Source: Candidatus Hydrogenedentota bacterium (GTDB taxonomy: Bacteria > Hydrogenedentota > Hydrogenedentia > Hydrogenedentales > JAJRTN01). From it: a stretch of 40,597 bases of DNA. Of the stretch, positions 4,440 to 22,338 are shown piece by piece. The DNA lies in assembly GCA_024278275.1 (NCBI GenBank), contig JAJRTN010000171.1:1-40597 (forward strand), given 5' to 3'. A program made the translations under genes and the position numbers. The notes beneath the pieces are model-generated. The model did not search any database. It was given only the letters and a program-made list of their open reading frames with translations, and was not told the origin of the DNA. Each line of letters opens with the position of its first letter. The stretch's first letter is position 1.

Positions 4440-4497
4440 TGCCTGTGTCTATCCCCCCGTACGCGTCCGTCCAATCGTTAACCAAGTCGTCCAACTC

Positions 4498-4680
4498 CTA
4501 GTCACGCTGACCCTCCTTCAGCCATTTGTCTATGGCCTCGCGGTGGAACCGCCAGTGTTTGCCCACCTTCTGGCACGGGATCTTGCCTGTCTGTGCCAGC
4601 CGATAGAGAGACGACTTCGGCACTCTGAGATACTCGCATACCTCGTCAACCGTCATGACCTTTGGATCTCTGCGGATCAT
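4498..4680 (-). CDS. Excisionase-family (MerR-like) DNA-binding protein
   Basis: This small protein of about 60 residues contains the canonical helix-turn-helix/wing of excisionase-family proteins: VMTVDEVCEYLRVPKSSLYR, then KIPCQKVGKHWRFHREAIDKW. The ATG at 4680 was chosen because GGAG lies 8 nt upstream. A longer in-frame start at 4713 has no ribosome site. The gene sits 58 bp upstream of the helicase in the same orientation, so it probably heads the operon. Proteins of this family act either as recombination directionality factors or as small regulators. The position here favours a regulator of the helicase-methylase operon, although an excisionase role for a surrounding island is possible. 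Confidence 0.8.
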   Translation of the reverse strand: MIRRDPKVMTVDEVCEYLRVPKSSLYRLAQTGKIPCQKVGKHWRFHREAIDKWLKEGQRD

Positions 4681-5129
4681 GCCTTGTTCTCCGTCTCTCA
4701 AGACCTCGGGCATTTTGCTCGTTTCTGCCCGTTATTGTCAAAGCCTTTTGAGCCTAAAAAGGGCAGTCAAATCGCAGAATTGGTCGTAAGTCGTTGCCGA
4801 AAAGTGCTTCACATGCGTTGGTGCATTCACCTCTCGGGTGAGCGGATTTCAACTGCCGCGCAGTTGAGAACAGTCGATATAAGTAATTGCTGCATAGCGA
4901 GATAGAACGAGTAGAATCCTCCGCGATAAGGGCGCAATTGCCCTTTTTAGGTTCAAAACGCCACCTATCGAGCCCGTCCCACAACAATTGGAATTACCCT
5001 TGCCCGGTCTTGGACAGGCCCCTTAACCGGGCAACAGGAAAACGGGAGACCTGATCCAAAAAAAAGTGATTTCAGAAGGAAAGAACCCTATTCTATGCGG
5101 GTCGAAGCGTTACGGCGATTCTGTCTTGG
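4681..5129. other. Intergenic region between the R-M operon and the leader-distal end of the CRISPR array
   Basis: I see no supported gene here. The stretch holds the promoter side of the leftward R-M operon, a long-range inverted repeat (4746-4765 and 4939-4958) and the sequence flanking the terminal CRISPR repeat. Short frames over it have no ribosome site and no recognisable product. Confidence 0.5.
4746..4958. repeat. Inverted repeat pair (20 bp, 19/20), arms 173 bp apart
   Basis: The left arm at 4746-4765 reads TTTTGAGCCTAAAAAGGGCA. The right arm at 4939-4958 is its reverse complement with one difference. The arms lie just upstream of the excisionase-like gene, between it and the CRISPR array. 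They could be paired operators for that protein, the ends of a short mobile element, or att-like core sites. The sequence alone does not decide. Confidence 0.6.
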
Positions 5130-5165
5130 ACAGCAGTGGGGCCACCGATTTTCATCGGTGGAAAG
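5130..5165 (-). repeat. Degenerate leader-distal CRISPR repeat
   Basis: The outer 7 nt of this repeat on the plus strand (ACAGCAG) differ from the consensus GCTTCAA at four positions, while the remaining 29 nt match. Degenerate terminal repeats are normally leader-distal, which places the leader at the opposite (cas2) end. Confidence 0.85.
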
Positions 5166-6436
5166 CTGTTGTTCTTGGGCAACTTCCGGGGTTACTTCCG
5201 TGGGCTTCAATGGGGCCACCGATTTTCATCGGTGGAAAGGCCGGTGCCCCGCAATCCATCATTGTGGATTGTGAGCTTCAATGGGGCCACCGATTTTCAT
5301 CGGTGGAAAGAGCACCAGCCAACGCCGCGCCCTTCGCGAAGGCGGGCCGCTTCAATGGGGCCACCGATTTTCATCGGTGGAAAGCGTCGTTTTCCTCCCA
5401 GTCGAGTAGTCCCCATTGTCTGCTTCAATGGGGCCACCGATTTTCATCGGTGGAAAGAAGGAAGACGAGAGCACGGCCCCGGTAAAGAAACTCGCTTCAA
5501 TGGGGCCACCGATTTTCATCGGTGGAAAGACCCCATGGCCGATGGAGTGAGGTACGAACGACATCGCTTCAATGGGGCCACCGATTTTCATCGGTGGAAA
5601 GGACGCAGACACCGGCAGGAGATGCGACGGGGGTTTGCGCTTCAATGGGGCCACCGATTTTCATCGGTGGAAAGCAGCATGAGCGCCGACGGTTGGGACG
5701 GTGTCCGAGAGGCTTCAATGGGGCCACCGATTTTCATCGGTGGAAAGAAAGCACTATAAGCGGTGCCAGCGCAAGACGCACTGGCTTCAATGGGGCCACC
5801 GATTTTCATCGGTGGAAAGTCCGTGTGTCTACCGACAAGCCCCTGTGGGACTTCGGGCTTCAATGGGGCCACCGATTTTCATCGGTGGAAAGGGTCTGCC
5901 CGGCGGCCGGGGGTGTGATGGTGTGCGTGCTTCAATGGGGCCACCGATTTTCATCGGTGGAAAGTTCACACGGGCGAAGGGGGGGCTATACAGCAACAAA
6001 AGCTTCAATGGGGCCACCGATTTTCATCGGTGGAAAGTTCCGAAAGGCGAGGCAATACCGGTCGACGAGCTCTATGCTTCAATGGGGCCACCGATTTTCA
6101 TCGGTGGAAAGAGGCGTGGGCTGCCGGCAGGGCCGACGGAGATAAAAGGCTTCAATGGGGCCACCGATTTTCATCGGTGGAAAGTCCATCGATCCGTTCC
6201 CGTCCGATGAGGTTAAGATTTAGCTTCAATGGGGCCACCGATTTTCATCGGTGGAAAGAGCGACGATGATGGGCCCATCTGTCAGAGTTGTCTGCTTCAA
6301 TGGGGCCACCGATTTTCATCGGTGGAAAGGTTATCTGCCTGTCAATTATTCTCCTTCCTGCATAGCTTCAATGGGGCCACCGATTTTCATCGGTGGAAAG
6401 TCGCCCTGCCGGTGAAAGGCTGAAAATATTTGGCGG

Positions 6437-6472
6437 GCTTCAATGGGGCCACCGATTTTCATCGGCGGAAAG
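6437..6472 (-). repeat. CRISPR repeat with a stem point variant
   Basis: The plus-strand base at 6466 is C instead of T. In a minus-strand transcript the change is A to G opposite U, so the crRNA stem keeps a G-U wobble. In a plus-strand transcript it would be a C-A mismatch. This is weak extra support for minus-strand transcription. Confidence 0.85.
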
Positions 6473-7603
6473 CATCTGGTGCGTGGCGGTGGGCGGTGTC
6501 AGGTGGAGCTTCAATGGGGCCACCGATTTTCATCGGTGGAAAGTGGGAACTGGCATTCGAGCTCGGCTCCCATGCGGAACGCTTCAATGGGGCCACCGAT
6601 TTTCATCGGTGGAAAGTCCATCGCCAGATCGGTAGCGATGACCGTATCCAGAGCTTCAATGGGGCCACCGATTTTCATCGGTGGAAAGTTGCTGAGGCGC
6701 GACATCACGCGATCTCCCATTCCAGCTTCAATGGGGCCACCGATTTTCATCGGTGGAAAGCCCGATGAAGGCACCAAAGTCCCCTCCTTTGTTGCTGCTT
6801 CAATGGGGCCACCGATTTTCATCGGTGGAAAGGCCGGTGCATGGGTGCGGTTCAACCCGCTCGATGGGCTTCAATGGGGCCACCGATTTTCATCGGTGGA
6901 AAGCTCCTTGTTTGCGCCCAAGGTATTCGAGCGCGGATTGCTTCAATGGGGCCACCGATTTTCATCGGTGGAAAGCCGCCGGCACAAGGCACACCCGCCT
7001 CCCCAGGATCCACGCTTCAATGGGGCCACCGATTTTCATCGGTGGAAAGGCCTTATTTGTGTTATAGTTTAGGCGTAGTTTAGGTGCTTCAATGGGGCCA
7101 CCGATTTTCATCGGTGGAAAGCGGAACTTTATCGAGGGGAGTGGTTTACGCGGCTCCTGCTTCAATGGGGCCACCGATTTTCATCGGTGGAAAGAAATAG
7201 TCACTCACCCCCATTCGCCGGAGCTTTATCGCTTCAATGGGGCCACCGATTTTCATCGGTGGAAAGCCGCGCACACGCACGTAGCATGGTCGCGCATGAA
7301 GCAGCTTCAATGGGGCCACCGATTTTCATCGGTGGAAAGCCCCATCGACCTCTATAAGGTCGTCGTGGAGGCTCCCAGCTTCAATGGGGCCACCGATTTT
7401 CATCGGTGGAAAGGCGTTCAGCTGCGCTCCAGCGTTGCCCCCGTGGTGTCGCTTCAATGGGGCCACCGATTTTCATCGGTGGAAAGGGCCTTCTGTGCCT
7501 CGGCACGCACGGCGTCGAGGTGCTTCAATGGGGCCACCGATTTTCATCGGTGGAAAGATCGCGCTTTGTAAGTTCCTTTGGGGCAGTGGATTAGGCGACC
7601 GTT

Positions 7604-7771: not shown

Positions 7772-8062
7772 CTACACCACGATGGCGTGGCGTTCGACGA
7801 AGACGTAGGGCTTGCCGATGGCCTGGGTGGCGCCGGCGTTGTAGCTTTCGGCGGTTCCCAGGGAAAAGATGAGGATCTGGTCCTCCCGGTGATTGATGAG
7901 CGGGTTGAGGTCGGCAATCATCCGGGCGTGTTCCTTGTCGGACAGTTCGCATTGAAACACGGAATACTGGAGGTGTTCTCCGTAGCCGTTCATTTTCCGG
8001 AACACGCGCCGCAGGCGCTTGTCGTCGGCGATATCGTAGGTTACCAGATAGATGCGGCGCAT
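7772..8062 (-). CDS. cas2: CRISPR-associated endonuclease Cas2
   Basis: The 96-residue protein is of normal Cas2 length. It starts MRRIYLVTYDIADDKRLRRV, with the conserved first-strand Asp at position 10 (YDI), and contains the YSVFQCEL strand typical of the ferredoxin-like Cas2 fold. Cas2 dimers bridge two Cas1 dimers during spacer integration. The gene is the last of the cas operon, 3 bp after the cas4-cas1 stop, and lies next to the leader. Confidence 0.95.
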   Translation of the reverse strand: MRRIYLVTYDIADDKRLRRVFRKMNGYGEHLQYSVFQCELSDKEHARMIADLNPLINHREDQILIFSLGTAESYNAGATQAIGKPYVFVERHAIVV

Positions 8063-8065
8063 GGG

Positions 8066-9817
8066 TTACCTCGTGAGGAACGCGGGCAGGCGGGGCAGCT
8101 CGCCGGTGAGGGTTCTGGCCAGGAGCCGGGCCTGCACTTCAAGCACGCGTCGGTAGGAAATGCGATAGTTGAACACGGGATGGGTGACGAGGTCATCCAT
8201 GCGTTTTTCGTAGGCCAGGATGAACTTTCGCCGGGCGTCGTCTTTGAGGGCCACGGCCCCGCCGCGCCGGATGAAATCGCCGGGGGCGACCACGCCGTTG
8301 TTGACGGCCCACAGCACGACGGAATCGGGAATGAGGGGCCGGAAGGGTTCCATCATGTCGAGGGCGAGGGCGGGGCGGCCATAGCGCGGCTGATGGTAGA
8401 ATCCGAGATAGGGGTCGAGCCCGACGGCGGCCAGGGTGATGGTCCAGTCCTTGGCGAGCAGGGCATAGGCAAGGGAGAGCATGGCATTGACCGGGTCGCG
8501 GGGCGGACGCCGGTTGCGGTGCTCGAAGGAGAAGGCCATGCCGGGGTCCGAACCCTCGCCGCCCGCTGTCCCCGTGGGCTTGAGCAGGGCGCCGAAGTGG
8601 GCGAAGTAGGTTTTCGCGCCCATGCCTTCGACCCCCAGGAGCGATTCGAGGGACTCGGCTTCGGCGGCGCGGCCGACGGATTGTTTGAGTGCGTCGAGGG
8701 CGGCGCGGGGGGGATCGGGATGGTTGCGGCGCAGCAGGGTGCGCGCATTGAGGATCTTCTGGTGGACCAGGTCGCGGGCGAGTTGAAGGCAGCGGTCCGG
8801 TTCGGAGGCCACGCGGTATTGTGCCTGCCGCAGTCCCACGTTCTTGTGGCCGAGGCCGTGGGTCATGCCGTAGAACCAGCCACCGAAGGAGAAGAAGAGG
8901 ACGGGTATGCTCCGGGCCAGGCATTCCTGGAGGGCGGGTGTGGTGAGGGTTGCGCCGCCGAAAATGCAGACCTGCGAGGTCTCGATGAGGCGGGCCGATT
9001 GCACCTTCTCGCCGCGCACCTTGACCACCAGTTGGTCGGCATGCTTGCCGATGACCGCGCCATGCTTCTGGACGTAGAGGGGCAGGGCATCGTCCCGCGC
9101 GGGCACCAGGCGGCGCACCTGGTCCTCATCGGCCTGGTCCTCGCCCGCGAGGAGGATGTTGGTCTCGTCGGGCAGGCAGAGGGCCGCCAGCGAGCATCGT
9201 GGGCACTTGGGGCTGTCCTTCAATGGCGGCGGCTTGGCCTCCGATAGGGCCATGGCCCGCATCCGGTCCAGCAGGTCCAGCGTCCGCGCCACCAATGTAT
9301 CGTCGAGAAGGACCGTCACCCGGCGGCGGGACCGGGCGAAGTAGATCTCGCCATGGTCGCAGGCGTAGCCATTCTCCCGCAGGATGATGCCCCGCGCGCA
9401 TACCTGTACCCGCTCCGGTTCGTAGGCTCCCTCGGGGATATCCGGCGCGGTCCCGCGCTTCACATCCACCGGCACCGCGACCCCGCCCGCCTCCTCGACC
9501 ATGTCGAGCCTGGCGATGAGGCCCGCCGACGACGCCGACATCATGACCGACCGCGCCTGGCGCACCACCGGGTCCTCCGCCACTGCCAGGGCGAGATCCG
9601 CCTCCCCATCCTCCTGCCCGTTCGCCGATGCAGGGTCCGCGATGTTGCCGGTCGCCTTATCGACCCGGCGATGCTGAAACCGCCCATCCACCGTATCCGC
9701 ACTGTCCGCGAAGTCCCCCTCCACCCACTCGATCCAACAGAGCCGAGGGCAATAGGCATACTCGTTCAGCATCCGCGCCGGGATGAGGTCGGGAATGGTG
9801 GTTTCAACGTGCGACAC
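8066..9817 (-). CDS. cas4-cas1: Cas4-Cas1 fusion adaptation protein
   Basis: The fusion has about 583 residues from a GTG start at 9817, chosen because AAGGGGG lies 7 nt upstream and the protein then begins near the usual LIPARMLNEYAYCPRL. The frame is open about 100 codons further upstream without family similarity. The Cas4 part (about 1-220) has Cys23, a RecB-type core PVDVKRG (Asp118, Lys120), the QVCARGIILRENGY helix, and the Fe-S cysteines 205, 208 and 214. The Cas1 part (about 235-583) has the metal ligands Glu397 (LLGVEGMG), His475 (GFYHQPRYG) and Asp487/Glu490 (ALDMMEPFRP). In this fusion Cas4 trims prespacers and selects the PAM, and Cas1 integrates. It is a hallmark of subtype I-G. 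A gap of 485 bp holding a toxin-antitoxin remnant separates it from csb2. Confidence 0.95.
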   Translation of the reverse strand: MSHVETTIPDLIPARMLNEYAYCPRLCWIEWVEGDFADSADTVDGRFQHRRVDKATGNIADPASANGQEDGEADLALAVAEDPVVRQARSVMMSASSAGLIARLDMVEEAGGVAVPVDVKRGTAPDIPEGAYEPERVQVCARGIILRENGYACDHGEIYFARSRRRVTVLLDDTLVARTLDLLDRMRAMALSEAKPPPLKDSPKCPRCSLAALCLPDETNILLAGEDQADEDQVRRLVPARDDALPLYVQKHGAVIGKHADQLVVKVRGEKVQSARLIETSQVCIFGGATLTTPALQECLARSIPVLFFSFGGWFYGMTHGLGHKNVGLRQAQYRVASEPDRCLQLARDLVHQKILNARTLLRRNHPDPPRAALDALKQSVGRAAEAESLESLLGVEGMGAKTYFAHFGALLKPTGTAGGEGSDPGMAFSFEHRNRRPPRDPVNAMLSLAYALLAKDWTITLAAVGLDPYLGFYHQPRYGRPALALDMMEPFRPLIPDSVVLWAVNNGVVAPGDFIRRGGAVALKDDARRKFILAYEKRMDDLVTHPVFNYRISYRRVLEVQARLLARTLTGELPRLPAFLTR

Positions 9818-9910
9818 AGGAGCGCCCCCTTCGTATGAGATGAGCCAGGGGCCCGGTGGCACGCCGCCCACGGCCTTGATATTCCACCCGGGGCATGGGA
9901 GAAGGGGCAT

Positions 9911-10105
9911 ATGGTGTTTCAAGGCCGAGTAGATAACGGCATGGTCGTGCTGGGGGATGAACGGAACCTGCCCGGAGGCACTTCCGTGACCGTACTGAGC
10001 AACGCGGCGGGTGTTTCGGTTGCCACGCCGGGGGGTGCGCCCGTTGAGTTGCCCTTGGTCCGTTCCAGGTGGCCCGGAAGCCTGAGGATAACGGCGGAAA
10101 GCGTC
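9911..10105 (+). pseudogene. VapB/AbrB-like antitoxin remnant of a TA pair
   Basis: The frame starts at an ATG with a good ribosome site (GGAGAAGGGG) and gives MVFQGRVDNGMVVLGDERNL, then PGGTSVTVLS and VELPLVRSRWPGSLRITAES. This is the length and pattern of short beta-barrel antitoxins that precede PIN toxins: a small N-terminal fold and a toxin-neutralising tail. After about codon 65 the frame runs on without family resemblance because the toxin gene that should follow is broken. It lies antisense to the cas operon, in the gap between csb2 and cas4-cas1. The 5' end looks intact, so a short product could still be made. Confidence 0.55.
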
Positions 10106-10146
10106 GCGGTGGGGCTTCACGTGGGAGCGAACGTCCTCGAAAAAAG

Positions 10147-10302: not shown

Positions 10303-11739
10303 TCAAGGTTCAACCTCGGATTTGCCGAGGGGAAAAAAGAGGCCAAGCCCCCGATGTCGTCCTGCACCAAGGGCAAGTGGACCCGGTACGGAGTGTTTCC
10401 AAGCCAGTTCCACGTGCATAGCCGAGTAGTTCTCGAAATGCTTGGCGCGCTTATAGTCTTTCGGATGGTAGGCGTGGGTCTGGAACGGCGCTTTGCGGAG
10501 ATGGATGTCCGTTATGTCCTCCGGAGAGAACCCCGCTTGGCGAACTGCCTTCAGGAGCAGCTTCTCCGCTTTGGCGTATTTCATCCCATCGAAGCCCGGC
10601 AAGATCACGGGTGTCACCGTTCGGAAGCGTTTGCCCGATTCAGTGAAGCTCTTGAATCCCTTTTCCGTGCGCCGGGTGCGGCTGAGTTCGGCGACGATAT
10701 CGCCCCCGGAGTTCTTAAGGAGAGCGGACTGGAGTGCTTTCCCCGCCCAACTCACTTTCTGCCCATCGCCCCCATAGGGCTCCGCGAGGATGAAGCGGCG
10801 AATGAGGCCGTCTGCATGTGCGTGACCAATGGAAGGCAACGGTAGATAGGAGAATCGGGGGGGCGTTCTTGATTCCCCTTCCGCTACATGGCCGGCGATG
10901 TATTCCTCCGGGTCGCCGAGAAAAGCAACACCAGGGCGCTGGCCGAGTTCGCAGAGACGGCTTCGAACCCACGCGGAGACCAGGACCGTATCCCTTGGGT
11001 CAAAGGAAGCCATGCGCCGTGATTCACTGCCGGGTCTCAATAGGGTGAAACAGGCCGTGGGGCGATAGGTTTTTCCCTCCCGGGCATACCCGACCTCTGC
11101 ATACTCGGTGGGCTTCTGAGCGGGCGTGTAGACTGGCCCATCCCAGCGCGCCAGTGCGGATGCATGACAGGCTTTCAGGTTTGCGTAGGAGCCTGGGCAG
11201 GGACATCGCAGGGTTTTGTCACCCCACGCGGCGGGCTTCCATCGTTGGCCGGGATAACCGGCCTTCAGGTTGTCCGCCTGTTCTTGGGAGAGGATAAGGC
11301 CGTTGCCTGCGACAAGGTCGATCCCAAGGCCAACGGCGGTCAGCATGCGCGCGTAGTCGCACAGACGTTGAAGCTCTCCCTTGCTATCCGAGGCCACCGC
11401 CCACAGGTAGTGGACCGTACGCGTAGGGCCAGTGAACAGCACCGGGTTGAAGTCCTTGTCCGTAAGGCGGGCCTGCCTGTCCGGCTGCACATCCGATGCG
11501 TTATTGGGCACGTAGGTCTTTCGCCTCTGGCCCACCGCGACGGCAGGTGCGAGCACCACCGGAGGCGGGAGTTGTTCAAACGCCGCGAAAACCGTCTGGT
11601 CCTCCACCCGATTCCCGGCGGCTGCGTTGAGGAGCGCCTGGTAGAGCCGCCACGGCGAGGGGGGCCACTCGGTCCCCTCTGCGGTCTGCCCATGGAAACG
11701 GTCATCAAGGTAGGTAATCGAGATGCATAGCGTGTCCAT
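10303..11739 (-). CDS. csb2: Csb2 (Cas5-Cas6-type Cascade subunit, subtype I-G)
   Basis: The 478-residue protein begins MDTLCISITYLDDRFHGQTA and then EWPPSPWRLYQALLNAA, the N-terminal signature of the GSU0054/Csb2 family. It ends with the glycine-rich LALGAGRHRGLGLFFPLG, the G-loop of RAMP/Cas6 folds. In subtype I-G this protein combines the Cas5 role at the crRNA 5' handle with Cas6-like processing of the repeat hairpin. The start lies 2 bp from the csb1 stop. Downstream is the 485-bp interruption before cas4-cas1. Confidence 0.9.
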   Translation of the reverse strand: MDTLCISITYLDDRFHGQTAEGTEWPPSPWRLYQALLNAAAGNRVEDQTVFAAFEQLPPPVVLAPAVAVGQRRKTYVPNNASDVQPDRQARLTDKDFNPVLFTGPTRTVHYLWAVASDSKGELQRLCDYARMLTAVGLGIDLVAGNGLILSQEQADNLKAGYPGQRWKPAAWGDKTLRCPCPGSYANLKACHASALARWDGPVYTPAQKPTEYAEVGYAREGKTYRPTACFTLLRPGSESRRMASFDPRDTVLVSAWVRSRLCELGQRPGVAFLGDPEEYIAGHVAEGESRTPPRFSYLPLPSIGHAHADGLIRRFILAEPYGGDGQKVSWAGKALQSALLKNSGGDIVAELSRTRRTEKGFKSFTESGKRFRTVTPVILPGFDGMKYAKAEKLLLKAVRQAGFSPEDITDIHLRKAPFQTHAYHPKDYKRAKHFENYSAMHVELAWKHSVPGPLALGAGRHRGLGLFFPLGKSEVEP

Positions 11740-11741
11740 GG

Positions 11742-12773
11742 CTACTCTTCTTTCTTCGCTTTCTTGAGCGCTTCCTTCGCAGCCTTGGCATCAAACTCGA
11801 CCGAGCGTAATGCTTCAACCCCAAAGGTATCCGCGGATTGCCTTGCGAAATCGAGCGCTTGCTGGTGGGTGAGGGTAAAGCCTTCACGGCTGCCGTCGTG
11901 GTGTACCAGTTCCCAGGTGGCGGGGCGCTCAGGGTCGGCGGTCAATTCGCAACCCATTCGCAGAAACGTATCCTGGGGCGCGGTGAAGGTCACCAAAGCC
12001 AGGCCGAGAATGTACTGACGCAGCGTTGCGGTGGCAGTATCATCGGTGCCGGAAAGCTGACGTAGCGCGGCGAGACTGAGCACGGCCTCCCGGAAGAGCA
12101 CGCTCTGCCCGTCAATTAGCACGCCCCCCAACGCAGCAGGCGCCGGAACATGCCCCATACCTGCATCGGGGAGCTTCTTTTTCTCGGCATCCGTGAGCTT
12201 GTCGAATGCGGCTTCATAGTCATCCAGTGCCGGGGTGAACTGCGCCGAACGAGTGAGCTTATGCACATTATGGGCACGCACCGTAGCCCGTACGATTCGA
12301 GGAAGCTTCACTCCGGTTCCCCGGGAGTCCCAGCACCCGAAGATGAGGGAAGTAGGGGCCAGCCTGGCGAGGAGGGTAGTATCTCCGTGCTTCGCCGCGA
12401 GGAATGCGTCCTGGATAGCCTCGGAAAGCTCAGAGAAGCGAACGACCGCGTCAGCCACACGATGGCCCGCGTCGAGGATATCGACTATCTCGCCCGTCCT
12501 GGGAATGGTAACCTGTACTTGCGGGATAAGCTGTGAGTATGGCGCGCACTTGAAGAGGGGCTCCATCCGGTTCGCTTGCGAGCCAACGCTGTCGATCAGG
12601 CACACATTGCCGGTGACACGGCCATCGGCATCTGTGAGTTCGTCGATGTTATAGCCGACATCGGCAAAGGTTGGTGGGAAGATGACAGCATTGTCGCCTT
12701 CCACCGGCTTGAGGTTCTGCCGCATTACGATGGCAGCGTTGCTTGAGTCAAGTAGCGTGACGATTTCTTTCAT
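11742..12773 (-). CDS. csb1: Csb1 (Cas7 backbone subunit, subtype I-G)
   Basis: The 343-residue protein has the GSU0053/Csb1 pattern: NAVIFPPTFAD near the N-terminus, then NVCLIDSVGSQANRMEPLFK and a conserved TSLIFGCWDSRGTG segment. Csb1 is the Cas7-type RAMP that polymerises along the crRNA spacer. The C-terminus is lysine-rich (KAAKEALKKAKKEE). The start lies 3 bp after the csb3 stop, so cas3-csb3-csb1-csb2 form a tight translationally coupled block. Confidence 0.92.
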   Translation of the reverse strand: MKEIVTLLDSSNAAIVMRQNLKPVEGDNAVIFPPTFADVGYNIDELTDADGRVTGNVCLIDSVGSQANRMEPLFKCAPYSQLIPQVQVTIPRTGEIVDILDAGHRVADAVVRFSELSEAIQDAFLAAKHGDTTLLARLAPTSLIFGCWDSRGTGVKLPRIVRATVRAHNVHKLTRSAQFTPALDDYEAAFDKLTDAEKKKLPDAGMGHVPAPAALGGVLIDGQSVLFREAVLSLAALRQLSGTDDTATATLRQYILGLALVTFTAPQDTFLRMGCELTADPERPATWELVHHDGSREGFTLTHQQALDFARQSADTFGVEALRSVEFDAKAAKEALKKAKKEE

Positions 12774-12776
12774 TGG

Positions 12777-13556
12777 TCAGTTCTCCTGTTTGAACCTTGA
12801 AATGCCGAAAGCCTTATACCGGCCTTCACTATCCCGCTCGTACATCGAGAAGGAAAGAGTCCCCTGAGAGACCCCATAAATCCTCATTCCTATGGCCAAA
12901 GCGGCAATTCCTATGGGCAATGGCCGGTCCCAAACATGGAATTGCCTGCCAAGCCGCGTGGCATCCCTTGACGGGCAGAATCGCTGCAGGGCAATGAGGG
13001 CGAGCAATTCGGTTGCGGTGGCCGGACAGGTTTGGTAGGCGTTTCCCAGATCGTTGAGAGAGAATCCTGCGTCCTGGGCCGTCTCGCATTTCGAAATGTT
13101 GTAGGCGGTTACGCCACCTTTTGTTCGGGTGAGTTGGGCAAGTACTGAGGCATCAGGCCTGGCGGGAAGTGAAGCAATCAAGTCGGCTGTGATCTTGGCA
13201 ATGGACTGTTGCCCCGCCCATGTTTTCACCAATCGGTTCTGTGGATAGGCTTTTCTCCAATCGATGGTAAAACCAAAAGGTTTTCCCAGCACCACCGGCC
13301 CCTCCTTTTGTGCTTCATCGCCGGAGACTGGACACGCCTTCAGAAGATCCCACACTTTCTTGAGGCCGATGGAAGTGTCATTCGCATCGTGAGCCGCAAG
13401 CAGAAACTCGGTTGTTGTCTTGTTGATGTCCCGAAACCATCCCATGGCGGGCCGGTCTTGGGGCGTAAGGCGATGGGCCAGTTCGAAGAGGCCACAGCAG
13501 GCAAAGACCTGCCCGGGATTGCACAGGTCGACTTTCACGGTCAGGGTGGGCTTCAT
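12777..13556 (-). CDS. csb3: Csb3 (small Cas8-type subunit, subtype I-G)
   Basis: The start at 13556 overlaps the cas3 stop in an ATGA junction and gives a 259-residue protein starting MKPTLTVKVDLCNPGQVFAC. The longer frame overlaps cas3 and has no family resemblance. The CGLFELAHRLTP segment and the location between cas3 and csb1 match Csb3 of the GSU0051-GSU0054 arrangement. Csb3 takes the Cas8 place (PAM recognition and Cas3 recruitment) in the Csb3 variant of I-G, where other loci carry the much larger Csx17. The assignment relies on position and weak motifs more than on strong sequence signatures. Confidence 0.8.
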   Translation of the reverse strand: MKPTLTVKVDLCNPGQVFACCGLFELAHRLTPQDRPAMGWFRDINKTTTEFLLAAHDANDTSIGLKKVWDLLKACPVSGDEAQKEGPVVLGKPFGFTIDWRKAYPQNRLVKTWAGQQSIAKITADLIASLPARPDASVLAQLTRTKGGVTAYNISKCETAQDAGFSLNDLGNAYQTCPATATELLALIALQRFCPSRDATRLGRQFHVWDRPLPIGIAALAIGMRIYGVSQGTLSFSMYERDSEGRYKAFGISRFKQEN

Positions 13557-16369
13557 GATTCCTCCTCCAGGATGCCGTTCTGCTCGGCGGCGGAAGCAAT
13601 GGCATCCGCGCGGCGCAGGATGGACTCCAGCCACGCAAGCCCCCACCAGCCAAAGCGTCTTTGGAGCCGGTCATAGCGCAGCATGGCCTCATAGGCGGTC
13701 TGTTCGCCGGGGGTGCCGGTTCCCCCCAGTAAAAAGGCCCCTGACTGGAAATGGGGGCGAGCCCATCCGTGGTGTGTGGAAATGCTATGCAGAATAAGGT
13801 CGGCCTCAGGATGATCCCGGATTTCCGCCATGTCTCCCAATACCTGAAGACTACCGGCCTCATGTCGGTAGCCATCCAGTTTGCGCCAGTCAACGGCGCC
13901 TTTCGCCAGCGGGGCATTGTCGGATTCGGGGTCGTGTCCTGCGGCTATCTGCCAGCGTGGTGCCTCCTTACCCTTGTCATGGTGCTGCGCCGCCAGGACA
14001 AGCGCTTCACGAATTTTTTCTGGAAAGGGGAAAGCGGTGCACAGTTTCCTGGTGACTTCGGCGACATGGTTGCTGTGTTCCTGGACTGTGGGAATGGTGT
14101 CTGTCGAGCCCCCGACACGTCGTTCTGCGACGGGCCTCAGCAAGACAAGCCATTTCTCGCAGACTTCGTCGTCCTCGGCGAATTCGTCCGCGATTTCAAC
14201 TTGCAGCTTCAGAACCATTTTCAGCCCTTTTTCGCGTTCGATATATCGGATCGAGGTGGACACGCGTTCCCACGGTGGCGTCTCTGTGTCCGACCCACCG
14301 GAATCCCCCAGAATGCTGTAGTGCCATACAGCGCCCTCTCTCGTGAGGAGGCACCGGCATAGGTCCCTGCTCGCCACGTCCAACTTTTCTGCCGGGTGCG
14401 TCGTTTTCGGGTCGAAGAAACCGGCCTCGCTAAGTCCAGACACATCCGTCGGTAAAATGATGCTGGCATAGTTGAGCCGCATCGAACGGGGGTGCTCTAC
14501 GAGGTTCTTGAGTATGGTTTTGACTGCCTCCCCTTGAGGTGAAAGGACGATAACGGTAGCATCGTGCTTCTCCTGCGGGAATCCCTTGAGCAGCGTACTC
14601 ATATCATCTTTTCCCTGCTTGAGGATTGTGTGTGTTGGAAGCTGGAGGCGCTCGCAGGCACGCAGTGGGTGCGCGAGGAACCACCTTTTCAGGTCCTCCT
14701 CGGAAAGGTTTTTCAGGTAGGTGACTTCGCTCCGCCAAGCCAGAATGGTCTGCGGATAGTTGTCCTGGATGCCATGGAGCCACGATTCCGGCTCCGGACT
14801 CGCCGCCATGCCTTCGACCGAGGTTTGTGCCCAAAGGTCCAGCAAAAGGGGTGTCAGGTCGACCATCTCGGGAACCGGTGAGAATGCTTCGCGAACGGTC
14901 TCTTCTTGAAGCCAATGCTGAAGGCAGGAAATACTCACATCGATGCTCGAATCCTGGCCCCTCTTACCCCTGAGAAATGCAAGCGTTGCCTTTCGGGCCA
15001 ATTCCTCCGCTGTCTCCTTGCCCTTGACTTTATTCAGGGACTCGTCATGCACTACCTGCACATCGGCTTGGCTGCTACCGAAGCGATTGACCCGGCCCAG
15101 CCGCTGTATCATGGAATCGAGGGTCGACAGGTCGCAGACCATGTGGTCGGCATGGAGATCCATACCTACCTCGGCTGCTGAGGTGGCAACCAGGTAGGCG
15201 GCCTCTTCAGGGATGCACTCTGTCAGGAACGGCTGCATCGCTGGGAGTAACAACAGCTTGTCCCGTTCATATCCACGAATCTGGCCGGTGAGGATGTTCA
15301 CGCGGCGTGCCGCTTCCCGCCTCAGTTCATCGGACTTTTTCCTGGGGAGAGGGGTGCCTGGGTTGGCCTCTTCAAAGACGTTGACCGCAATATCGCCAAG
15401 CGCCTTCTGGATGCCATCGGCAACCTTTCCGGCATCCTCTGGCTTTCGGAGGAACACAACCACGCGGCAGGGCATTGATGCATGCTCAAGGGCGAGGTCT
15501 ATGATGCGTTCCTGGAGGGGCTTCCCATCTTTCTCGACCTCATTGAGGTAGAGCGTCTTGTTGGCCTTCAGCCGGGGGGCTATGATGTGGTCGGCCTCGT
15601 CCTCCGGACTAAGCAGGAGCGGCTCGGCACTGTTCTGACCGTTGACTGTATGCGTTGCCGAGAGTTCAAGCACCTGCATTTTCGCTATCCAGTGGATCGG
15701 TTCGCCGAAGTTTTGAGTTGCTTGTTGCTTGTTGTTTGTTGTTTGCGTCACGAAGGCATGAACCGAACGAAGCAGCTTCCCGAATGCCGGGGTGAGGTGT
15801 GCCTCATCGTGGATGAACAGGCAATCACATCCCAGCAGTCCGGCATGTAAGGGGCGCATGCGGCGACTGTCGCCATAGCCCGAGAACAGCAGTTTGCTGC
15901 CGATCATATCCACCGTACCAATCACGATGGCCGGCTTGGCCGGATTCGATTTCCACTCCTCATTGTCCGCGAACTCCCCTCGAAGCGTGCTTACAGCCAG
16001 GGGTGTAGTGGCGTCGTTGGACAGGGGGTCCAGTTTCATCAGCGCCGTAGCGGCCTTATACAGAGCGCTGCCATCATTGCCCAGTGCCTCGATAATCCTC
16101 TGGCGAATGGTGGTAACCAGATCGGTAGCTTGGTCAACGATGGTGCGCCGGTTCACAACATAGACCAACCGCCTGGGGAGGTCCGTATTGCAGGCCAGGG
16201 CCAGCAGCCAAATGGGTATCACCATCGTCTTTCCGATCCCCGTGGGAATATCGCAGACCGAGGGGACGTCATTGAGTAAGAGCCGTTCATATAGCCGCCC
16301 TTGCCATGGGAAGGGCGGGAATCCCGTGAGTGCCTTGAAAGCCTCCTCGAAAGCACGGTTTTTACTCAT
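13553..16369 (-). CDS. cas3: Cas3 helicase-nuclease with C-terminal HD domain
   Basis: The ATG at 16369 (MSKNRAFEEAFKALTGFPPF) was chosen because GGAG lies 8 nt upstream, giving 938 residues. SF2 helicase motifs are CDIPTGIGKT (39-48), VYVVNRRTIVDQ, FIHDEAHL (DEAH box), LELSATH, and MIQRLGRVNRFG (motif VI). The HD nuclease is at the C-terminus: EHSNHVAEVTRKL, then LAAQHHDKGKEAPRW, then STHHGWARPH. This order is reversed relative to most Cas3 proteins and is typical of GSU0051-like I-G Cas3. The enzyme unwinds and degrades DNA marked by Cascade. It is the first intact gene of the cas operon, 47 bp downstream of the broken WYL gene. Confidence 0.95.
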   Translation of the reverse strand: MSKNRAFEEAFKALTGFPPFPWQGRLYERLLLNDVPSVCDIPTGIGKTMVIPIWLLALACNTDLPRRLVYVVNRRTIVDQATDLVTTIRQRIIEALGNDGSALYKAATALMKLDPLSNDATTPLAVSTLRGEFADNEEWKSNPAKPAIVIGTVDMIGSKLLFSGYGDSRRMRPLHAGLLGCDCLFIHDEAHLTPAFGKLLRSVHAFVTQTTNNKQQATQNFGEPIHWIAKMQVLELSATHTVNGQNSAEPLLLSPEDEADHIIAPRLKANKTLYLNEVEKDGKPLQERIIDLALEHASMPCRVVVFLRKPEDAGKVADGIQKALGDIAVNVFEEANPGTPLPRKKSDELRREAARRVNILTGQIRGYERDKLLLLPAMQPFLTECIPEEAAYLVATSAAEVGMDLHADHMVCDLSTLDSMIQRLGRVNRFGSSQADVQVVHDESLNKVKGKETAEELARKATLAFLRGKRGQDSSIDVSISCLQHWLQEETVREAFSPVPEMVDLTPLLLDLWAQTSVEGMAASPEPESWLHGIQDNYPQTILAWRSEVTYLKNLSEEDLKRWFLAHPLRACERLQLPTHTILKQGKDDMSTLLKGFPQEKHDATVIVLSPQGEAVKTILKNLVEHPRSMRLNYASIILPTDVSGLSEAGFFDPKTTHPAEKLDVASRDLCRCLLTREGAVWHYSILGDSGGSDTETPPWERVSTSIRYIEREKGLKMVLKLQVEIADEFAEDDEVCEKWLVLLRPVAERRVGGSTDTIPTVQEHSNHVAEVTRKLCTAFPFPEKIREALVLAAQHHDKGKEAPRWQIAAGHDPESDNAPLAKGAVDWRKLDGYRHEAGSLQVLGDMAEIRDHPEADLILHSISTHHGWARPHFQSGAFLLGGTGTPGEQTAYEAMLRYDRLQRRFGWWGLAWLESILRRADAIASAAEQNGILEEES

Positions 16370-16416
16370 ATCTTCCGCTCCATGCGCTGTGTTTGCCCGT
16401 TCGATCATCGCCGGTA

Positions 16417-17102
16417 TCAATCGAAAACATGACCACTCTCCTTCGGTGCCTTCCCCCAAGCTTTGTATCTATCCACCAACTTGACCAGACTGAAACTTAT
16501 TTCCTCCCGCAGGTCACTGGGCTCAAGCAACTCGGCGTCGGGACCAAAGCCAAGCACCCAAACGACGACCTGAAACGACTGGTGGCGATGAAGATGAGAA
16601 TAAGCGCGCCATCCTTGCGCTTGGTGAGTTTCCGGTCGGGGCTCCAGGTGCGTTCGGCAACGTAGGTGGCCGCGTCACCCCAAAACGCAACCTTCACCCA
16701 GATGAGTTCGTGGAGAGGGAAATCGAAGTGGGGGTCGTGGTCCTCTTCGTGGGTATCGGGGAAGGTGGCCACGTCGATGTAATAACGCTTGATGCAATGC
16801 ACGGCCAAGGTACGAAAGTCGTCGGCAGGCTGTGCGGGCGCGTCGTATCGGTGGCATCGAAGGTAAAGAATAATCTGGAGGGGGGCCACGAGATAGGTGT
16901 GCCGCCTTCCGCTGGAACGGGCCTGATAGATAACCTGCAACTCCTCTTCGAGTCCGTCGTCCTCCACGGAGGAGAGCTTCACGAGGTAATTTGGCTTCCC
17001 TGTGTCACCCACCAGTCGAGGGGCGAACGTGATGATCTCCGTGACAACGAAAGGACGTTTTCTGGTGATGACCAACTGACCAGCTTCTGGCTCGTTCTGC
17101 AA
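16417..17102 (-). pseudogene. Chimeric DrmD-WYL gene, frameshifted
   Basis: From the ATG at 17102 the first 58 or so residues (GQLVITRKRPFVVTEI, then LVKLSSVEDDGLEEELQVIY) match my knowledge of the N-terminus of DISARM DrmD SNF2 helicases. Directly after VIY the frame continues as a WYL domain: VAPLQIILYLRCHRY, DDFRTLAVHCIKRYYIDV, ERTWSPDRKL. Near 16570 the frame is lost. The proper C-terminus (FQVVVWVLGFGPDAELLEP, then LREEISFSLVKL) continues one frame over and ends at TGA 16417. An intact WYL gene would be a likely regulator of the cas operon. Here a deletion seems to have joined drmD to the WYL gene, and a one-base shift then broke the product. The conceptual unshifted frame stops at 16497. 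The DrmD call is from memory of the family and should be searched. Confidence 0.7.
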
Positions 17103-17542
17103 TGTATGGCACTCCCCAGTCCGGGTTCCCCAAAGATCTCATCCCCGGTGATAACCCTCCCAAATAACCGCCCGTGGCGGATTCAACGGCCCCGACACAC
17201 GACGTACCGATATCTCGCGGCATGGGCCCTTGCAGGCGGCAAATTGACGCCCCGGAAGTAAATTGAAGACCCGCGAAACCACCACTTGCCCCATTATCCA
17301 TCGTCTGGTAGGCTAACAGTGAATCACGGCCCACCGCCACCCATTGGCATTCTGCCGATTGTGTCAAGCCCAGTCAAGCGGGCGGGGAACACCGAGTGTG
17401 CGACACGAGCGAATGACCACGGCGGCCCTTCCCGGGACACATCCCGAGCCGCCGGGTGAAACCGAGGTGATGCACGAGTACTACACAAAGGACGTCGAGT
17501 AAACTGACAGTGAACCGAAGCGCGGGTCTCCGTCTTTTGGAT
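17103..17542. other. Gene-free stretch upstream of the chimeric gene
   Basis: No gene is supported on either strand. The region carries two copies of a CTNACAGTGAAYC motif, at 17313-17325 and 17504-17516, and probably the promoter of the leftward cas transcription unit. It is most likely the scar of successive deletions and an IS insertion. Confidence 0.4.
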
Positions 17543-17677
17543 TCATCCGCACTTTCCGGGGAAGGCTTCGCGAACCCGTAGAAAGCTATACCCGTCATCT
17601 TGGAACCCGCAGCCCATTCGCTTGATGACTTTGAGCCTGTTGTTGACTCCCTTGAGGATACTGGTGTTGAGTGGGCG
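17543..17677 (-). pseudogene. ISL3-type transposase C-terminal remnant
   Basis: Forty-four codons ending in TGA read RPLNTSILKGVNNRLKVIKR, then MGCGFQDDGYSFLRVREAFP. This is the C-terminal signature of ISL3-type DDE transposases, whose tail reads roughly NTGVLEGINNKIKVIKRMAYGFRD...FLKIRAAFPG. Everything upstream of this tail is gone and no terminal inverted repeat could be matched, so the element is dead. It marks a former insertion between the cas operon and the phage-like genes. Confidence 0.75.
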
Positions 17678-17950
17678 CTTACAGTGGACTGGGATGCCCG
17701 AATTGCCGGTCATCATAGCGGGTGCGTGCGGATGGCCTGTGGCCGTTTTCAGCGTCGTGAACTCCCGAATTGTGTAACAGTGGATCGCATGCCCTGGTGA
17801 TAACCCGGTACCAGCATGAAAGGAAAGCGGAAAACGAATTCATCATCGCGCAGGCCCACGCCGACGGCAACCTCAAGCAGCAATTTCCAGTAAACAAACC
17901 GCTACTGGATGGCACGTTGAGAACCCCCGATTTTCCAAATGCCTCGTCCC
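17678..17950. other. Gene-free stretch between IS remnant and terminase gene
   Basis: No credible gene was found. Two further copies of the ACAGTGRAYY-type motif lie at 17678-17690 and 17774-17786. The stretch may be eroded IS or phage DNA. Confidence 0.35.
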
Positions 17951-18487
17951 TTATCCGTATTTCGGCCATTCTTTATGGAGCCGTTCCAGAAAGTCTCGGA
18001 GTTTATCGCGGCCTTCCTCGTCGAGTTGCTCAACGCTGACGTCTCCCGCGATGAGCTGCATAAAGGTGCCTTGTAGGACTTTGTGCTCGTGTTTCTGGAT
18101 GAAATAGCCCGCAGACCTCGCCAGTAGTTCGGAGGCGCGCAGGCGGGTCATTGGCGGTAAGCGTACATCATCCATCATGGCTGACCATGCCGCTTGCAGC
18201 TTCTGTCGATTCACGATTCGTTCTTTCCGACCCTCGATTTCACGTGATTGAATCGCGGCGATAATGTGACTTTTTGATACCAGTCGCCGAGCATAACCGT
18301 AGCTGAGATTCGCCACTTTTGCCGCAACACGAATGTCACCAGCATAAGCATCCACAAACCTCCTTTGACGCACCGTCAGTGACCGTGTTGAAGCCCGAGG
18401 CCGATATACTCGCGCGGCACCATGCTTCTGCTGGTAACCGCGTGTTACCAATATCGCCTTCTTCGTTTTTGACCCTATTCTCTTCAT
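17951..18487 (-). CDS. Phage terminase small subunit-like protein
   Basis: The 178-residue protein has the small terminase pattern: SLTVRQRRFVDAYAGDIRVA with AKVANLSYGYARRLVSK (the N-terminal helix-turn-helix that binds pac/cos DNA), then a basic region and a C-terminal acidic helix. The start at 18487 has GGAG 10 nt upstream. No large terminase, portal or capsid gene accompanies it, so it is either a prophage leftover or a satellite-type packaging gene. It lies about 280 bp from the tRNA-Gly fragment that looks like an attachment site. Confidence 0.75.
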   Translation of the reverse strand: MKRIGSKTKKAILVTRGYQQKHGAARVYRPRASTRSLTVRQRRFVDAYAGDIRVAAKVANLSYGYARRLVSKSHIIAAIQSREIEGRKERIVNRQKLQAAWSAMMDDVRLPPMTRLRASELLARSAGYFIQKHEHKVLQGTFMQLIAGDVSVEQLDEEGRDKLRDFLERLHKEWPKYG

Positions 18488-18922: not shown

Positions 18923-20584
18923 TCAGTTGCTCGTTGTTTGCGTGCCCCGTCGCAGCCTTTCCACCACATCGCGCAGCCGCGCCACTTCATCCAGCAGGGC
19001 ACGCTCGAGTTGAAAGCCAAGGCCGGGCGGTGCGTTGAGGGTTTGGAGAAGATCGCGGCAGCCGGCGCGCCGGGCGCGCCAGGCGATCCAACGGGCGCCG
19101 GTGGAGAGCACCACGTATTCCGCGGTCAGTAAGAGGGCAAGCAGCGCGGCGGTGTGATAAAAGAAAGCCGTATCGAGGTAGACGCCTTTAAAGTAGCTGG
19201 TGAAGATGTGGCAACCGGCGTAAACCACGAGCATCAGCGTTGGCAGGTCGGCCAGCAGGGCGACGGGCCAACTGGTGAGGAAACAGGCGCCGCGCACGAC
19301 GCGGTCGCGCGCCGGGCCACGGAGCAGGTCGGTCACGCGCCGGGCCAGTTCCGCCTGAAAGGCTTCGAGACCGTCATCCTTCCCAACGGGGTCGAGTCCG
19401 GCCCGGGAAAAGGCGAGTCCCACTTCACTTTGCTTCGCGCGGTAAACGTTTTCCACGGCATCCGTGGCGACGCGCACGTCGTCTTCGACCGCGCCGCCCT
19501 CGGTGAGCAGGGCCACGGCACGGTGGGTGTCGTCCTTTTGCCCCGGATTCCACGGGAGCAATTGGGGCAGCCGCACGGGCAGACCGCGCAGCGCTTCGAT
19601 GCAGCGGAAGAGCAGACCCGCGCCACCCCGCGCCCGCACGCTCATTTCACGGCCCACGGCAAAGCGCCACAGGTGAGGCTCGGCGAAAACGCGTCGTTCC
19701 AGGCAGCGGAAGGCCTCCTTCGCAAGGTCTCGGCCGGCCGTCTCCAGCATGTTCCGCAATTCCTCGGGCGCGGGCGTCATGCCACTCACGCGCTCGTGCA
19801 GGCGGGCAACCATCTTCGATAACAGGCCGGCCACGTTGGAACGCTTGATGCGGGCGATGCGTTCGCGGGTGAGTTCGTGGCGGAGGAAGCCTTCGAGCTT
19901 GGGGAAATCCAACTCCGCCGCCTCGGGCTTGTTTCCGGCGAGTTTACGGTCGAAGGCGTGAAGCGCGTTCACGCGGAAGAAGAGGTCGGGGGGAATGTCA
20001 AACCCGGCTTCGCGAAGACGCTCGGCCCAGTGCGCCGTGATGTCGTTTTTTTCGCGCGCCTTGGTCTCCACGCAAACCAGGGTCCGCTGCCCCCGCAAGG
20101 GTCTCAACAGCGACCAGGTAGCCTCGTCGAGATACTTTTCCGCTGTCGCGCAGAGAAGGATGACATCGCATTGATCGAGTACGCGCCGGGTCTGTTCCCG
20201 GTGCTGCTTCACCACCGTGTCGGAATCGGGCGTGTCAATGAGCACAAGGTGCTCCAGGGCGGAACGTGCCACGTAACGTCCCTCGCCGAAATCGAGCCGC
20301 GCACCGGGCGGGTGGTATACCACGGGCGCGTCGGTGCAGGGACGCATCTCGGAGGTCTCGGCTATCTGGTCGCCGGCGACGGCGTTGAGGAGGGTGGACT
20401 TGCCCACGCCCGAGCCGCCGACCAGCGCGACCACCAGCAGATCGTCAAGGCGATCAGCCCGTTCCCGAAGTTCCTCCACGCGCCGCGCCAGCAGCGGTGT
20501 TTCCTCGCGAAGGGCGCGCCAGGACCCGCGGTAGGCCGCCAGGTCCGACAAGGCTTCCACCAGGTCTACAAGGCTCTCAGGCAT
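18923..20584 (-). CDS. Dynamin-like/YfjP-type GTPase, second of a pair
   Basis: The protein has about 553 residues from ATG 20584 (MPESLVDLVEALSDLA). The frame is open further upstream, but there it overlaps the neighbour with no family resemblance. G1 is VGGSGVGKST, G3 is LIDTPDSDTV, and a possible G4 lies near CVETKAREKND. A long helical middle follows, then two hydrophobic stretches (WPVALLADLPTLMLVVYAG and HTAALLALLLTAEYVVL) and a coiled C-terminal tail (EVARLRDVVERLRRG). This is the layout of membrane-associated dynamin-like GTPases. It overlaps the upstream GTPase by 19 bp, so the two probably work as a heteromeric pair. It is the first gene outside the proposed island. Confidence 0.75.
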   Translation of the reverse strand: MPESLVDLVEALSDLAAYRGSWRALREETPLLARRVEELRERADRLDDLLVVALVGGSGVGKSTLLNAVAGDQIAETSEMRPCTDAPVVYHPPGARLDFGEGRYVARSALEHLVLIDTPDSDTVVKQHREQTRRVLDQCDVILLCATAEKYLDEATWSLLRPLRGQRTLVCVETKAREKNDITAHWAERLREAGFDIPPDLFFRVNALHAFDRKLAGNKPEAAELDFPKLEGFLRHELTRERIARIKRSNVAGLLSKMVARLHERVSGMTPAPEELRNMLETAGRDLAKEAFRCLERRVFAEPHLWRFAVGREMSVRARGGAGLLFRCIEALRGLPVRLPQLLPWNPGQKDDTHRAVALLTEGGAVEDDVRVATDAVENVYRAKQSEVGLAFSRAGLDPVGKDDGLEAFQAELARRVTDLLRGPARDRVVRGACFLTSWPVALLADLPTLMLVVYAGCHIFTSYFKGVYLDTAFFYHTAALLALLLTAEYVVLSTGARWIAWRARRAGCRDLLQTLNAPPGLGFQLERALLDEVARLRDVVERLRRGTQTTSN

Positions 20585-22338
20585 AGTTCCCGGCTCTTTC
20601 GCATGGTTTCCACCGCGTCGTTCTCGAAAGGTGCCAGGGCCTCGTGGACCCCCGCCAGACAGGGCGCGGTGATGTGGGTGCACAACGCGTCGGCGAAGCG
20701 CCTTTGTTGTTCGTCCCGCCAGGGACCGATGAGCTTGAGCCACCGGTCCGACAATTGATGCAGTAAGACCTGTTCAAAGAAGCCACCGCCGAGTATTCCC
20801 GCCACGGCGGTCACCTCGGGCACCCCCACGCCGCCCGAGTAAAACGACAGGGGCACGCAGATGGCCGTGGGCGCGACCACCAGGATGGCGTCCAGTTCCA
20901 TGAGTATCTGCCGCTTCACGGCATGATCCCGCCACCAATCCTCTAGGGTTCGCTCCACATGTGCGCGAAAGCGGTCGCTGAGCCCCTCCGATTCAATGGT
21001 CTGATCCACGACCGTCCGCACCGCGGCATCCGCGTCAAGCCGGTTCAACGCGTCCCGTACCAGGACGTTCGCCGGCGGTTGCAACGCGTGGGCCGAATCG
21101 GAGTATCCCTGCGCAAGATTGCGCGCGCCCGTAGCGACGGCCCGTTCCCGACACTCGGCGATCTCCTCCTCCGTGCGCGCCCGCCGGGCCGCCCCGGCCC
21201 CTCCCGTCCGGCCCATGGCCCGGTTGGCCAGTGCCCGCACCGGTGCAAGGCCCTTGGCCACCATCCCCGAGACCCGCCCCACGCTCCTGCTTAATACGCC
21301 GCGCCGCGCCTTGATATGGTCGTGCAAAAGCCGGCCCACTTCGGTGCCCGGCTCGGGGTCGTAGGTTCCCGCCATGGCTTCCGCGCGGGATTCGAAATCG
21401 TGGATTACGCTCCGCAGCATCCCCGCAAGCTGGTCCGTCCGTTCCAGGAAATCTTCCGCCTGGTGCGCGAAATGCGACACCGTGTCACGGAAAACGTGGG
21501 TTTTGATGGCGGCCACGTCCAAGGATTCAAGATACTCCCAAAGCGGAAGGTCCCCCTCGAGGGAATGAATGGTGTCACCATAGCGGGTGTCCACATCGAA
21601 ATCATGGGGTACCACGAAGCAGGGCGGGTTGTCGAGCCCCACCTCACGGCAGAAGTCGCCCAATTGGCTGCGGGCCGTGGCGTAGTCTTCGGCGGGGTTT
21701 GCCTTGTTCATGAGCGGCAGGACGATGCGGCCGGCGGCCCGTGCCGCCCGGTAATAGGCGATGATCCGGTCGTCCTTGTACTTTTCAGCGGTCACCACGG
21801 CAATGAGCACATCGCCCGTGGCGCGAATGTGATCCGCCCGGTCCCAGTTTTCCCGGTCGATGGAATCCACGTCGGGCGTGTCAAGCAACACCAGCCGGTC
21901 GGGCAGTTCTTCATGCGCGACGACGAAAAGGGCTGAACAATCTGTATCGCGGGAAATGGCGGAGTCCAAATCCTCAAGCGCCATGGCATGAAAGTCGGGG
22001 AAGAGACGACCCTCGATGGCTTGTTTTGCCCGCATTGCATTGCCCGCAAACACGGGGCGGCAGGTGGCTGCGGCGGTACTCCTCACCGGGCTGGCCTCGC
22101 GGCCCAGCAGCATGTTGAAAACCGTGGACTTACCGGTGTTGGTTCCACCCGCCACGGCCACCACAAGACAGCCCTCCCCCGCCAACTGCGGGACAAGTTT
22201 GTAGGTAAGGAGATCCACCCACTCCTCGGTGTGATCAAAGACCGCCTCATGCAGGGCGGGAATCGCGGACAATCCGTCCTGAAACACCGCCAGCGCACGG
22301 GCAAACCCGTCAATCCCCTGTCCCAGCGTATCGCACAT
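20566..22338 (-). CDS. Dynamin-like GTPase, first of a pair
   Basis: The 590-residue protein has G1 AGGTNTGKST (63-72), G3 LLDTPDVDSI and G4 LPLMNKANPAED, giving a clear P-loop GTPase of the dynamin/Era-like group. A helical region follows, with an Ala/Arg-rich stretch (RAMGRTGGAGAARRART), and then one hydrophobic hairpin (ILVVAPTAICVPLSFYSGG with VTAVAGILGGGFFEQV) near residues 480-530. Paired bacterial dynamin-like proteins remodel or protect membranes, and some act in phage resistance. Nothing in the sequence fixes the role here. The stop lies inside the next GTPase gene, indicating coupled translation. Confidence 0.75.
   Translation of the reverse strand: MCDTLGQGIDGFARALAVFQDGLSAIPALHEAVFDHTEEWVDLLTYKLVPQLAGEGCLVVAVAGGTNTGKSTVFNMLLGREASPVRSTAAATCRPVFAGNAMRAKQAIEGRLFPDFHAMALEDLDSAISRDTDCSALFVVAHEELPDRLVLLDTPDVDSIDRENWDRADHIRATGDVLIAVVTAEKYKDDRIIAYYRAARAAGRIVLPLMNKANPAEDYATARSQLGDFCREVGLDNPPCFVVPHDFDVDTRYGDTIHSLEGDLPLWEYLESLDVAAIKTHVFRDTVSHFAHQAEDFLERTDQLAGMLRSVIHDFESRAEAMAGTYDPEPGTEVGRLLHDHIKARRGVLSRSVGRVSGMVAKGLAPVRALANRAMGRTGGAGAARRARTEEEIAECRERAVATGARNLAQGYSDSAHALQPPANVLVRDALNRLDADAAVRTVVDQTIESEGLSDRFRAHVERTLEDWWRDHAVKRQILMELDAILVVAPTAICVPLSFYSGGVGVPEVTAVAGILGGGFFEQVLLHQLSDRWLKLIGPWRDEQQRRFADALCTHITAPCLAGVHEALAPFENDAVETMRKSRELCLRAL

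Follow-up and report, generated by a model that had tools for sequence, protein, structure and literature searches.

The open reading frame that immediately precedes a type I-G cas operon in a contig of Candidatus Hydrogenedentota begins like the DISARM helicase DrmD and continues as a WYL-domain protein. The question that it raises is whether two defense systems were fused here by deletion, or whether the frame is an ordinary protein architecture, a new regulatory gene, or an error of assembly. We analyzed the whole stretch of 40,597 nucleotides, here called the window, together with related genomes. The frame is very probably a chimeric pseudogene, left by a deletion that ran from drmD into a CRISPR-linked WYL gene and since decayed. 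Table 1 gives the positions of its parts and of the neighboring features.

TABLE 1 Features of the chimera and its surroundings (positions in the window)
Feature	Positions	Strand	Basis or remark
drmD–WYL hybrid open reading frame	TTG 17102 to stop 16497	-	Open reading frame list
DrmD-derived segment, codons 1 to 58, beginning with TTG; small N-terminal beta-barrel of the DISARM helicase (SNF2/RapA-like)	16929..17102	-	
Junction, codon 58 (DrmD)/codon 59 (WYL)	16928..16929	-	Tyr in place of the DrmD invariant W66; beta-strand predicted there in each parent
WYL domain with the first portion of WCX, frame shared with the DrmD segment	16578..16928	-	Identity to the G038/G062 WYL proteins and clade
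Site of 15-nt in-frame deletion, WYL barrel, between residues 78 and 79	16868..16869	-	Alignment against 16 homologues
Frameshift, one base missing (CGT TT- CAG), in the conserved TSRFEV segment	16573..16577	-	Frames, alignment, profile matches
Remaining WCX domain, in another frame, up to just before cas3	16417..16572	-	Profile match 4.1e-9, positions 298-333; translation
cas3g, directly downstream of the chimera	13553..16459	-	TIGR02621, 6.5e-176
cas8g2	12777-13646	-	110 bits, below the NCBIfam cutoff of 125
csb1/cas7	11742-12773	-	Profile match
csb2	10303-11739	-	Profile match
cas4/1	8066-10120	-	Profile match
cas2-like	7772-8062	-	Inspection and position
CRISPR array, 34 repeats, about 72-nt spacing	5127..7560	.	
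Possible relic of the C-terminus of an ISL3-type transposase, upstream of the chimera	17540..17690	-	PF01610, E = 0.016, below cutoff; suggestive only

The assignment of the first 58 codons (LQNEPEAGQLVITRKRPFVVTEIITFAPRLVGDTGKPNYLVKLSSVEDDGLEEELQVI) to the N-terminus of DrmD, made in the original prediction, was confirmed by several profiles. Two PADLOC DrmD models matched residues 3 to 62 (PDLC02632, 1.8e-10; PDLC02621, 6.1e-10), and the hybrid N-terminus was also matched by the NCBIfam model NF038317 (2.1e-7) and by a profile built from 59 DrmD N-termini (6.8e-14). It is 61% identical to the intact DrmD of 1,060 residues encoded in another Hydrogenedentota genome (G059; contig JAKPUV010000908.1, Candidatus Hydrogenedentota), and codons 1 to 58 align with DISARM DrmD (NF038317; the RapA/SNF2-like helicase of class 1 DISARM) at 61 to 68% identity to the best relatives. 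The DrmD pattern PExGQLV...LSSVEDDxLxEELQVxWE is present through codon 58, and the final invariant W is lost. What the hybrid does not share with DISARM DrmD is the helicase part (about 1,000 residues) and the company of other DISARM genes. The SNF2/RapA-like helicase core was detected neither in the hybrid frame nor elsewhere in the assembly, while the same helicase query did match G059. The closest PDB structure to the model of the DrmD N-terminus was RapA, in agreement with the description of the class I DISARM helicase as RapA-like (PMC12458937).

The remainder of the frame is related to CRISPR-linked WYL regulators. A WYL-WCX profile of full-length relatives matched from about residue 59 onward (1.7e-30), and the Pfam WYL model alone stayed below threshold (15.9 bits versus a cutoff of 21.8). 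The WYL half is 57% and 54% identical to the WYL proteins of genomes G038 and G062, the top two WYL matches in a set of 100 genomes, and clusters with them in the tree (support of 99/97). Both of these genes lie directly upstream of a type I-G-like cas3, on the same strand, and each encodes a full-length HTH-WYL-WCX protein of 337 residues. From codon 59 onward, the hybrid has the same clade, place, and strand relative to cas3 as these regulators, but it is devoid of their HTH and linker and carries a five-residue deletion in the barrel as well as a frameshift. The winged HTH is absent from the hybrid frame, and the N-terminal half of the WYL protein is absent elsewhere in the assembly.

The two halves meet at a sharp boundary. 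In the alignment of 59 DrmD N-termini, the tryptophan of ELQVxWE (W66 of the G059 protein) is invariant; the hybrid has a tyrosine there, the counterpart of Y173, which is invariant in the WYL family (numbering of the G038 protein). Codon 58 is thus the last of DrmD-like sequence and codon 59 the first of WYL, so that the in-frame transition without a spacer that had been predicted is placed by the Trp/Tyr switch at 16929/16928. The join is exactly in frame, for which the chance is 1 in 3, and a putative ribosome-binding site, GGGGAG, precedes the TTG start. In AlphaFold2 models, the junction lies within the final strand of the DrmD barrel (G059 residues 61 to 67, at low to moderate confidence) and within the initial strand of the WYL barrel (G038 residues 167 to 174, with high confidence there). 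A join within strands of both parents fits a blind deletion, not a fusion of whole domains. The extent originally given to the chimera, positions 16417 to 17102, does hold sequence of both origins, but the frame closes at 16497, one base is missing, and of the WYL protein only the C-terminal half is present. The end of WCX lies in a second frame (QVVVWVLGFGPDAELLEPSDLREE...), whose translation reaches 16417, and the two frames gave separate matches to the WYL profile that meet at profile position 298.

Beyond the junction itself, the hybrid carries lesions that set it apart from its relatives. The residues aligned to AYREA, which in the model form the hairpin linking strands 2 and 3 of the WYL barrel, are deleted only in the hybrid and kept in all 16 homologues; the deleted stretch includes E196, which is invariant or nearly so among them. 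Homology to the WYL beta-barrel is clear (1.7e-30), but the barrel has lost its hairpin and differs from its homologues at R222, G246, and Q276. The WCX domain is discontinuous, split by the 1-nt frameshift. Among the WYL-half positions conserved in all homologues, 3 of 20 are changed in the hybrid; by the same count, 14 of the 15 relatives from the phylum have 0 of 21 changed and the remaining one has 1 of 22, and a distant Desulfosarcina protein alone equals the hybrid. Its branch is also the longest of its WYL clade (0.60 versus 0.35 and 0.38). The codon-position GC of the hybrid is still coding-like (third-position GC of 0.73 in the WYL half), which suggests that decay is recent or incomplete; judged from the sequence, it seems young. 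Given the lack of an HTH, the 15-nt deletion, the frameshift, the altered conserved residues, and the long branch, the hybrid gene is probably not a working protein. The idea of a working fused gene is not supported, in view of the internal deletion, the frameshift, and the lost conserved residues.

If a DrmD N-terminus followed by WYL were an established family, full-length homologues of this kind should be found, and these were sought. About 85,000 genomes were scanned for the DrmD N-terminus with short peptide patterns and the best 80 loci were kept, a procedure by which very divergent fusions could be missed. In 79 of these best 80 loci the N-terminus runs into DrmD helicase sequence, the remaining one is cut off by the end of its contig, and a following WYL was seen in none of the 80. 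Plasmid records contained one WYL protein and one drmD, separately, and not the fusion; nothing was found in phages and viral contigs, and no fusion was seen in relatives. The homologous WYL proteins have an HTH at the N-terminus. All of this speaks against an ordinary architecture, which is extremely improbable and had nothing found in its favor; the refutation proposed along with the original prediction was thus tried and did not refute it. At least nine of the best 80 loci have drmD frames that end early (L063, L070, L071, L088, L092, L113, L116, L124, and L126), suggesting that decay of drmD is common; the hybrid shares decay with these truncated or frameshifted genes of other genomes, but none of them was seen joined to WYL.

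An error of assembly would offer a trivial explanation, namely, a misjoin of the start of a drmD contig to the end of a WYL-cas contig, with the frameshift as a further error. That the window is one contig of a 200-contig assembly speaks for it, but a misjoin should have left what is missing of drmD and of the WYL gene on other contigs, and neither piece is present. The join lies inside a 40-kb contig with intact long open reading frames on both sides, the frameshift is outside any long homopolymer, and a 15-nt deletion is untypical of assembly error, all of which makes this explanation unlikely. In the assembly, which is 96% complete, we found neither the rest of drmD and the HTH half of the WYL gene nor any match to DrmA or DrmB, both queries of which recovered their targets in the positive control, G027. 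The missing halves and the absence of DrmA and DrmB are as a deletion predicts, unlike a simple misjoin.

A functional fusion, in which the SH3-like barrel of DrmD takes the place of the HTH in an HTH-less WYL regulator of the CRISPR operon, draws on the in-frame join, the TTG start with its plausible GGGGAG site, the location on the cas3 strand immediately upstream of that gene, and the coding-like codon-position GC. The literature also describes WYL domains fused to others and CRISPR loci under WYL control (PMC4012209). We consider it quite improbable all the same: the arrangement is unique (0 of the best 80 loci), WCX is frameshifted and the hairpin of the WYL barrel deleted, conserved residues are lost, and the break falls within predicted strands, not between domains. 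A newborn two-barrel regulator of this HTH-less kind, combining a RapA-like SH3 with a WYL sensor, perhaps completed by frameshifting, and tuning the type I-G operon, is highly improbable; if true, it would be a new regulatory gene born from a deletion between two defense systems.

The preferred reading, a deletion scar, implies a series of events. An illegitimate (nonhomologous) deletion would have fused drmD at codon 58 with a same-strand HTH-WYL-WCX gene at about its codon 173, the latter standing upstream of a type I-G cas operon. The deletion would have removed the remaining drmD, any intervening DISARM genes, and that half of the regulator which holds the HTH. Later, the hybrid frame would have decayed through the 15-nt deletion in the WYL barrel, the 1-nt frameshift in WCX, and the losses of conserved residues, the cas operon staying apparently intact meanwhile. 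Both intact parental types occur in the phylum, as a DISARM drmD of 1,060 residues and as HTH-WYL genes beside cas3. The deletion from drmD into a WYL gene upstream of cas3, as proposed originally, is well supported by the WYL clade, the missing halves, and the absence of DrmA and DrmB. Four observations count against this reading: no genome searched has drmD, WYL, and cas3 together, so that the intermediate is unseen; the join is exactly in frame; the codon-position GC is still coding-like; and the related operon of G044 has no WYL before its cas3. A deletion mediated by an insertion sequence was considered and rejected: the possible ISL3 remnant is about 600 bases off, not at the junction, and below the Pfam cutoff.

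As for the source of the WYL half, a DISARM-linked WYL gene was also rejected. The WYL gene beside drmD in G059 sits in a different clade, and therefore the WYL half does not derive from a DISARM-linked WYL of the G059 type. In that genome (locus L021), the HTH-WYL gene lies directly before drmD (2144-3181 and 3414-6596, respectively); no WYL gene with this profile was found at the other 79 of the best 80 DrmD loci. The WYL-drmD order of G059 would predict a WYL remnant upstream of the hybrid, and a profile search of the whole window found none.

The former order of the genes is a separate matter. We infer from the scar that DISARM once adjoined the CRISPR operon; the order drmD-WYL-cas3 itself, part of the original prediction, occurred in no genome searched. 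Cas genes beside drmD, or WYL downstream of drmD, were found in none of 67 relatives of the order and at none of the best 80 DrmD loci, mostly viewed with up to 5 kb per side. The operons of G038 and G062 encode a Cas8 of about 730 residues, whereas the operon downstream of the hybrid is a different I-G variant with a Cas8g2 of about 290 residues. Loci L022 and L023 hold type I-G-like operons with a large protein (about 730 residues) in the Cas8 position and WYL before cas3, unlike the small-Cas8g2 variant of the window and G044. The closest relatives of the cas3 in the window are those of G044 and G050 (58% identity). There is no WYL before cas3 in G044, and the contig of G050 is too short to tell. 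Its absence in G044 raises the possibility that the WYL gene was part of a different cas locus, since lost; it was either gained or kept in the lineage of the window or came from another I-G locus.

The type I-G set downstream of the chimera is complete (cas3g, cas8g2, cas7/csb1, csb2, cas4/1, cas2, and array), and from their sequence both the cas genes and the array of 34 repeats appear undamaged. The listed frame of cas3g begins at an upstream TTG, and its likely start is an ATG at about 16371-16408. The hybrid and cas3 share one strand and no terminator-like site was reported between them, so that transcription of the cas genes may begin upstream of 17102, within the putative former leader of drmD. 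The only promoter-like site in the promoter scan (17377-17349) is at chance level (1 found, 0.6 expected), and scanning the surroundings of the junction for Rfam families, tRNAs, and promoters yielded no informative match. The suggestion that the fusion placed cas expression under a new promoter is accordingly possible but not well supported.

Other genes of the window are of interest in their own right. Beyond the CRISPR array, a protein of 1,129 residues with a PLD domain and an SNF2 helicase (1050-4439, minus strand) is possibly a restriction-like defense gene; it was rejected as a DrmD, its match being to the helicase only (9.5e-29). Two adjoining dynamin-like GTPase genes, whose listed frames overlap (18923-22338, minus strand), lie near the CRISPR region, and dynamin-like gene pairs can serve defense. 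Between them and the chimera sits a small protein (17951-18487, minus strand) with a weak match to the phage terminase small subunit (PF03592; E = 0.0041, below cutoff), perhaps a prophage or mobile-element relic.

The chimera is real and unique, a single case of modest interest as a record of turnover. It also advises caution, in that a profile match to a DrmD N-terminus need not signal a DISARM system. As a scar, it would be the physical trace of the turnover of a defense island, in which DISARM was lost save for 58 codons and the neighboring CRISPR operon persisted, even after the loss of its putative WYL regulator. If the proposed order is right, this locus would be a natural case of a type I-G operon stripped of its WYL regulator.
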